Positions 28,762 through 30,161 of a DNA stretch of 64,000 bases are shown here, one piece after another. Position numbers and translations under genes: made by a program. The notes under the pieces are model-generated. The model worked only from the letters and a program-made list of their open reading frames with translations, had not been told where the DNA came from and made no database searches. Position 1 is the first letter of the stretch, and each line of letters opens with the position of its first letter. The stretch is taken from NCBI RefSeq assembly GCF_900129795.1, contig NZ_FQWW01000001.1, positions 930,001 through 994,000 on the forward strand, written 5' to 3'. The stretch is from Flavobacterium sp. CF108. GTDB taxonomy: Bacteria; Bacteroidota; Bacteroidia; Flavobacteriales; Flavobacteriaceae.

Positions 28762-29058
28762 TTATTCTCTTACTCTCTCACTGGAAAAGAAATAAGTATA
28801 AATCCAGGTCAATGTAAAAGAAGGAATGATATCCGTAAACGGAATTACTTCTTCAATAAAAGTTAAAACACTGGCTACTTTTCCAACTCTGCCTTTATAC
28901 ATTCTGGTCATAATTATAGCCGCGATTGGCGCCCAAATTACATCTGAAAATTCGCCAAGAAGCGGAATCGAAAAAGAAATCATACCAATTCCGTCCAAAA
29001 TTAAGCCAATAATTAATTTTGACATTCTATTGTCATCTACAACTTTTAGATCTTGCAT
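28762..29058 (-). CDS. hypothetical small membrane protein
   Basis: The 98-residue product has predicted hydrophobic helices around residues 14-48 and 66-92, with a positively charged turn (MTRMYKGRVGK). I do not recognise the family for certain. The amino acid pattern and the ATG start look coding, and the antisense frame looks poorer. It is convergent with the DUF6787 gene. Confidence 0.6.
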   Translation of the reverse strand: MQDLKVVDDNRMSKLIIGLILDGIGMISFSIPLLGEFSDVIWAPIAAIIMTRMYKGRVGKVASVLTFIEEVIPFTDIIPSFTLTWIYTYFFSSERVRE

Positions 29059-29282: not shown

Positions 29283-30161
29283 ATGATACACGCAAAAAAC
29301 ATACATAAATTCTACGACAAACTTGAAGTTTTAAAGGGAGTTGATTTACATATTAAGAAAGGCGAAATTGTTTCGATTGTTGGAGCTTCCGGAGCCGGAA
29401 AAACAACTTTACTGCAAATTTTGGGAACTTTAGACACACCCGAAAGAAACTCAGCATCATCATTAAGCATTAATGGTAAAAATATTTTGAGACTGCAGGA
29501 TATTGAAAATGACAATTCAAAAGAAGAAAAAACATTTAAAATCGTCACTTGGTCTGGTGTAATTTACATTATAATTTTGGTTGTTTATTTATTATTTTTC
29601 AGAACAAAAATCTTGGATGAAACATTAAGGTTAGTAACCCTTGGCGTCTTATTTTTACCAATAGTTTCCATGTTTGTGTACTACAACAGATATTTCAAAA
29701 AGAAAAGCAAGCAAGACAAAATACTATCAGAATTTAGAAATTTAAATCTCGGTTTTATTTTCCAGTTTCACCAATTATTACCAGAATTCACAGCTTTAGA
29801 AAATGTGTGTATTCCTGCTTTTATGGCCAATAAGCCAAAAGCACAAACCGAAAAAGAAGCTAAAAAAATACTGGAATATCTAGGTTTATCGCATAGAATT
29901 CATCACAAACCAAGCGAACTTTCGGGCGGAGAACAGCAGCGCGTTGCTGTTGCAAGAGCCTTAATCAACAAACCCGATGTGATTTTTGCCGATGAACCGT
30001 CTGGAAATCTTGACACTCATTCTGCCGAAAATTTGCATCAATTGTTTTTCAAGCTTCGTGACGAATTCGGGCAGACTTTTGTAATTGTAACCCACAACGA
30101 AGAATTAGCCAATATGGCCGACAGAAAATTAGTTATGGTCGACGGTCAGATTAGTAATTAG
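29283..30161 (+). CDS. LolD-like ABC ATPase with transmembrane insertion
   Basis: This is a 292-residue ABC ATPase. Walker A GASGAGKT is at 34-41, the Q-loop at Q161 in [12 protein letters not shown], the signature LSGGEQQR at 213-220, Walker B VIFADEP at 233-239 and the switch His at 271. Outside one region it reads like LolD, the ATPase of the lipoprotein-releasing LolCDE complex. Between about residues 77 and 148, where LolD has only a few residues, there are about 70 extra ones. They hold two strongly hydrophobic segments (about 88-106 and 116-134) and basic flanks (RYFKKKSK). The frame is intact. LolC/LolE-type permeases are not adjacent. The ABC call is secure; the insertion is highly unusual. 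Confidence 0.88.

Follow-up and report, generated by a model that had tools for sequence, protein, structure and literature searches.

A predicted membrane hairpin within the nucleotide-binding domain of a LolD-like ATPase of Flavobacterium

In the 64,000-nucleotide stretch of the Flavobacterium sp. CF108 genome analyzed here (contig NZ_FQWW01000001.1, positions 930,001 to 994,000; hereinafter, the window), the lolD-like gene encodes a protein of 292 residues that, judging by its sequence, is a single-copy LolD-like ATPase of the ATP-binding cassette (ABC) class. Compared with uninserted orthologs from the same genus, this protein contains 72 extra residues, in frame, between the beta-subdomain and the Q-loop strand of the nucleotide-binding domain (NBD). 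The additional segment is very probably a membrane hairpin, and there is reasonable, if far from complete, confidence that this hairpin anchors or stabilizes the ATPase at the transporter. The pump served by this ATP-binding subunit is likely to be the lipoprotein-export machine of the cell, with LolC and LolE as the probable partners. LolD is usually regarded as a soluble subunit that is brought to the membrane by LolC and LolE. Should the hairpin truly serve as an anchor, a single short insertion ahead of the Q-loop can convert an ABC motor into a membrane protein.

The LolD-like ATPase and its additional segment

The five NBD motifs listed in the initial annotation of this DNA, namely Walker A, Q-loop, signature, Walker B and switch histidine, are all recovered intact from the translation within one open frame. 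The protein scores 104.3 bits with the Pfam model ABC_tran (cut-off 25), which identifies an ABC nucleotide-binding domain. Among 189 NCBIfam families, LolD (TIGR02211) is the top-ranked one at 249.4 bits, below the curated cut-off of 307.75, and we use the label LolD-like rather than LolD because this cut-off is missed even though LolD ranks first. Most of the shortfall is not caused by the insert given that two uninserted orthologs from the same genus, with LolD also ranked first, remain below the cut-off as well (268.7 and 270.7 bits). A lone lolD match at E <= 1e-60 is present in 383 of 398 sampled genomes of the genus, with none in the other 15; such a match is found in each of the 333 genomes that are at least 90% complete and no more than 5% contaminated. 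The next-best match to the lolD product in its own genome shows 43% identity over residues 144-290.

The insert lies before the Q-loop, where the initial annotation had placed it, but is best delimited as residues 74-145, three residues off the 77-148 proposed there; the approximately 70 extra residues with two hydrophobic segments and a basic flank that had been described are borne out as a feature of the family. In 67 distinct insert-bearing proteins of 292 residues, the Kyte-Doolittle maxima over 19-residue windows have medians of 2.37 and 2.08 for the two segments, and both exceed 1.6 in 66 proteins, the lowest printed value being 1.60; elsewhere in the LolD-like protein, the highest value is 1.33. 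The maxima of the two segments are in the range of those for the segments of the LolC/E-like proteins from the same genome (1.71-3.0). From these windows and the model described below, all 67 proteins contain two conserved hydrophobic helices that are predicted to be long enough to span a membrane. The basic flank (residues 135-147) holds 5-7 K/R, and the turn (residues 107-116) holds 1-3 K/R and 1-4 D/E.

The insert is a protein segment under purifying selection that is strongest in the basic stalk. In 44 close pairs from 31 sequences, the ratio of nonsynonymous to synonymous polymorphism (pN/pS) is 0.285 for the insert vs 0.066 for the rest of the protein, and between members of this set, identity goes down to 43% in the insert and 85% in the flanks. 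By part, in 172 close pairs from the 67 proteins, pN/pS is 0.16 for the linker (74-86), 0.29 for the first transmembrane (TM) segment, 0.26 for the turn, 0.46 for TM2 and 0.09 for the stalk (136-149), with 0.05-0.06 for the NBD in the same set. Eight residues are invariant in all 67 proteins (Y95, P126, Y137, K141, S142, D145, L148 and S149). The sequence of the membrane segments drifts while their hydrophobicity and length barely change, and the basic stalk is nearly frozen. In the helical-moment test, TM1 shows no conserved face (p 0.35), the respective value for TM2 being p 0.05.

The AlphaFold2 model (mean predicted local distance difference test score, pLDDT, 89.8) reproduces the proposed two-helix insertion as a hairpin added to an undistorted LolD fold that superposes on 2pcj with 1.0 A over 216 residues. 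The hairpin consists of helices 79-109 and 113-155 with a break at 110-112, and the second helix is continuous, comprising the hydrophobic segment, the basic stalk and the native helix that precedes the Q-loop strand.

LolD of the LolCDE complex (Aquifex aeolicus 2pcj; Escherichia coli 7arh, 7v8i and 9rlc) has no membrane segment, in contrast to the two hydrophobic helices added here, and the NBDs of the type VII relatives FtsE and MacB also are chains without the hairpin. MacB carries its membrane part as a fusion to the NBD and not as an insertion into it. The SMC/Rad50-type inserts are likewise located inside an ABC ATPase domain but are coiled coils rather than two hydrophobic helices. In HisP, too, there is an extra element inside the ABC ATPase domain, which is described as a beta-hairpin (PMC7468199) in the loop equivalent to FtsE residues 63-72. 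In our alignments, residue 147 of the query corresponds to residue 80 of E. coli LolD (7arh) and residue 155 to residue 82 of FtsE (6z4w); by offset, extrapolated beyond the aligned stretch, the insert falls at the FtsE loop 63-72, where it also reaches the beginning of region R2 (71-79). According to the same study, R2 and the Q-loop region shape the cavity that receives the coupling helix of FtsX (PMC7468199). LolC and LolE are described as each contacting LolD with a coupling helix, an elbow helix and the C-terminal sequence (PMC8333309). Because the homologous positions in FtsE and LolD adjoin the coupling-helix cavity, the hairpin would rise beside the permease; by analogy, it would be located at the rim of the groove for the permease coupling helix.

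Distribution of the insert and the LolC/E permeases

A survey of the 398 genomes with a 78-position stretch covering the insert yielded clear matches in 47 (E <= 8.5e-20, 77-78 of the 78 positions, frames of 292-352 residues), that is, in approximately one in eight of the sampled Flavobacterium species, including F. johnsoniae. With the threshold relaxed to E <= 0.01, 65 genomes match, 18 of them weakly (2e-4 to 0.01) and mostly with stops in the frame or with frames that are not LolD-sized. The long frame in one genome (G016), considered in the context of independent insertions elsewhere in the phylum, is an upstream extension rather than an insert. In the collection of named sequences, 59 loci were confirmed, 55 from Flavobacterium (including metagenome-assembled genomes), three from 'Flavobacteriaceae bacterium' and one from [Flexibacter] sp.; the named carriers include F. 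johnsoniae, F. hydatis, F. pectinovorum, F. aquidurense, F. frigidimaris, F. chilense and F. panici. In F. johnsoniae, gliding and type IX secretion rely on outer-membrane lipoproteins, as stated in a study that deals with LolA and LolB of this bacterium and, in its main text, names LolCDE three times and LolD not at all (PMC11885536).

A protein search with the insert region returned 52 proteins, all containing ABC_tran, of which 49 consist of 292 residues and the remaining three are shorter. Three database records (P0009, P0011 and P0015) are irregular, one being an insert-bearing protein labelled BtuD and the other two lacking the usual N-terminus, at 225 and 273 residues. The length is almost constant across 97 insert-bearing loci, among which some genomes are represented more than once: the frame is open in all and encodes 292 residues in 95, 291 in one and 295 in one. 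No insert was detected outside the genus in a profile search of 395 genomes of the order (nine matches, all from the same genus, the query genome included). In 395 genomes of the phylum, there were ten matches, seven from the same genus and three weak, partial ones of 40-44 residues (E 4e-4 to 1e-3) in frames of 666-739 residues that belong to another family; these three apart, all matches in the two sets of genomes are from the same genus. Gene order at the locus is alike with and without the insert: the small upstream open reading frame (ORF) is found at 57 of 59 and 26 of 27 loci, respectively, and the downstream gene at 56 of 59 and 25 of 27, where loci vary in length and some absences are due to cut ends.

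Two full-length LolC/E-like permeases, of 411 and 399 residues, are encoded on other contigs of the same genome and match TIGR02212 (lolCE) at 179.6 and 163 bits, below the cut-off of 362.45. Orthologs of both, matched over 410-411 and 398-401 residues, are present in all 30 genomes chosen for comparison (17 with the insert and 13 without). This contradicts the suggestion of the initial annotation that the hairpin makes up for a missing LolC/E gene next to lolD. Nor are the carriers special in having no permease gene nearby, because lolD is far from both permease genes in the single-contig genomes G158 (with the insert) and G334 (without the insert) alike.

The searches for an origin of the hairpin gave the following results. 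When a free-standing donor was sought, the insert-only protein search retained one match from two candidates, namely a truncated LolD-like protein encoded on a contig of 979 bases, and the sole match of the insert profile in the query genome was lolD itself (14 of 47 candidates scored, E <= 0.001). With Pfam, 20 of 24 inserts match DUF3149 (best E 1.9e-6), the match in the single tabulated member covering 17 residues and being below the cut-off; the best hit of a profile search of the PDB was to a protein of the bile-acid-transporter family (E 0.012). No direct repeats flank the insert; the inverted pair that brackets it (18 nucleotides, 72%, 29472-29489 and 29717-29734) is not distinguishable from chance. 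Between 29200 and 30300, Rfam yields two matches, the downstream Flavo-1 and a SNORD10 that is below the threshold, both of them outside the insert; with no Rfam match on the insert and selection acting at the protein level, an RNA-level or intein-like element was rejected. In the titles and abstract openings searched, mostly from open-access journal papers, no description of a LolD with membrane helices was found.

Possible roles of the hairpin

Membrane anchoring is the best-supported reading because of the conserved hydrophobicity, the basic stalk, the fixed length and the predicted helical hairpin on an intact NBD; of the two roles initially proposed, the anchor is thus retained, as a prediction, whereas the mini-permease found no support. 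The LolD-like ATPase would be tethered to the inner membrane beside LolC and LolE, with both ends of the hairpin probably cytoplasmic. Two hairpins, one per LolD, would provide four additional membrane helices per LolCDE, and the hairpin would influence how LolD is assembled, retained or mechanically coupled, not the path of the substrate. A more far-reaching and distinctly tentative possibility is that an ABC ATPase domain has been turned into an integral membrane subunit from within, such that the F. johnsoniae-type LolCDE gains four helices and a rigid helix that ties the Q-loop side of each LolD to the bilayer, so that mechanical coupling has another route in addition to the coupling helices.

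Several observations weigh against anchoring. The model is that of a monomer without a membrane, from which the direction and distances of the hairpin are extrapolated, and TM2, the fastest-evolving part (pN/pS 0.46), contains a proline. Columns of LolC and LolE are only weakly associated with the insert (6 of 184 and 2 of 198 variable columns at uncorrected p < 0.01; 0 of 67 in RpoB). In the lolD core tree, built with the insert removed from 116 distinct rows (69 with the insert, 42 without and five outgroup), the locus L127 of genome G223 is inside the insert clade but lacks the insert and has a loop of the uninserted type. Furthermore, rpoB, lolC and lolE combined reject a single insert clade (approximately unbiased, AU, test p 1.1e-4), with or without G223. 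Both forms of LolD, moreover, probably work with much the same LolC/E, as follows from an exchange of alleles.

Such exchange at one locus is likely from the sequence comparisons because the trees conflict while the gene order is constant. The lolD core tree implies one gain and one loss, with support of 98/94 for the branch that unites the 69 carriers and G223. Nucleotides 150-240 of the G223 core are nearest to uninserted alleles (80% vs 71%), whereas three other stretches are nearest to insert-bearing ones; because the insertion-site region alone resembles uninserted alleles, the loss apparently was a replacement by recombination. Across the 30 genomes, rpoB alone requires six changes, and rpoB, lolC and lolE together require five, on trees with many unresolved backbone forks; G004, with the insert, and G197, without it, are sisters at 100/100 in both. 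A purely vertical history was rejected on the basis of these trees, although recombination within rpoB or lolC/E themselves may have contributed to the conflict. Allele exchange would also imply that the hairpin is sometimes dispensable. With natural lolD alleles of both kinds, which seem to have moved between species, the role of the hairpin can be tested directly.

The exchange of alleles, the apparent loss in G223 and the paucity of associated LolC/E columns would also fit a passenger, that is, a useless hairpin that probably enters the membrane, was acquired once, in frame, in a loop that tolerates additions, and keeps its shape only since bad changes would harm LolD; the equivalent HisP loop bears a different insertion (PMC7468199). 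We consider this rather unlikely given that the constraint on the stalk is near the NBD level (0.09 vs 0.05-0.06), that the eight invariant residues go beyond what bare hydrophobicity requires, and that there is a single loss on a tree with 69 insert-bearing rows. It is improbable that the hairpin is mainly a docking site or an added element of the substrate path for lipoproteins or another envelope protein. The presence of two helices, with Y95 and P126 invariant inside the hydrophobic segments, is compatible with such a role; however, two helices are few for a path, the LolC/E-like permeases are complete in all 30 genomes, and conservation within the insert is lowest in the membrane segments, with no conserved face in TM1. 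It is highly improbable that the helical hairpin is soluble and packs against the domain, or that the segment is removed before the protein works, in the manner of an intein or an RNA element: both model helices extend past the hydrophobic stretches, which implies that part of each is soluble, but the two membrane-like windows in 67 proteins, the undistorted superposition of the NBD on LolD and, for a removed element, the lack of an Rfam match and the protein-level selection all argue otherwise. A sequencing error, chimera or annotation artefact, raised initially as a potential refutation, has no point in its favor and a negligible probability in view of homologs that share the place and near-constant length of the insert in 47 of 398 genomes and at 59 named loci, with an open frame at 97 of 97 loci and the same neighbors as uninserted lolD.

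Features of the locus

Table 1. Coordinates of the lolD-like gene and its parts in the window
Feature	Position	Strand	Basis
lolD-like gene, 292 residues, ABC ATPase with internal insert	29283..30161	+	ORF, Pfam, NCBIfam
Walker A, residues 34-42	29382..29408	+	translation
Insert, 72 residues, about 74-145, edges uncertain by a few residues	29502..29717	+	comparison with uninserted orthologs
N-terminal linker of insert, residues 74-86, predicted cytoplasmic	29502..29540	+	pN/pS 0.16; model helix from 79
First hydrophobic segment, predicted TM1, residues 87-106	29541..29600	+	Kyte-Doolittle; model helix 79-109
Turn, probably periplasmic, residues 107-116	29601..29630	+	charge counts; helix break 110-112
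Second hydrophobic segment, predicted TM2, residues 117-135, invariant P126	29631..29687	+	Kyte-Doolittle, conservation; model helix 113-155
Basic stalk, residues 136-149, overlaps start of native helix	29688..29729	+	pN/pS 0.09; unbroken helix to 155
Q161 of Q-loop	29763..29765	+	translation; preceded by strand 156-160 (model)
ABC signature LSGGE, residues 213-217	29919..29933	+	translation
Walker B VIFADEP, residues 233-239	29979..29999	+	translation
Switch histidine H271	30093..30095	+	translation

In uninserted lolD, the loop beside the insertion site, bounded by DKP and L.ING, differs in length by as many as 11 residues (loci L012-L153). The small ORF upstream of lolD that is kept at most loci of both kinds encodes a hydrophobic protein of 98 residues (28762-29058, minus strand). 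The Flavo-1 RNA (RF01705; 30163-30262, minus strand) scores 45.7 bits against a gathering threshold of 42 and lies on the strand opposite to lolD, two bases past its stop codon.
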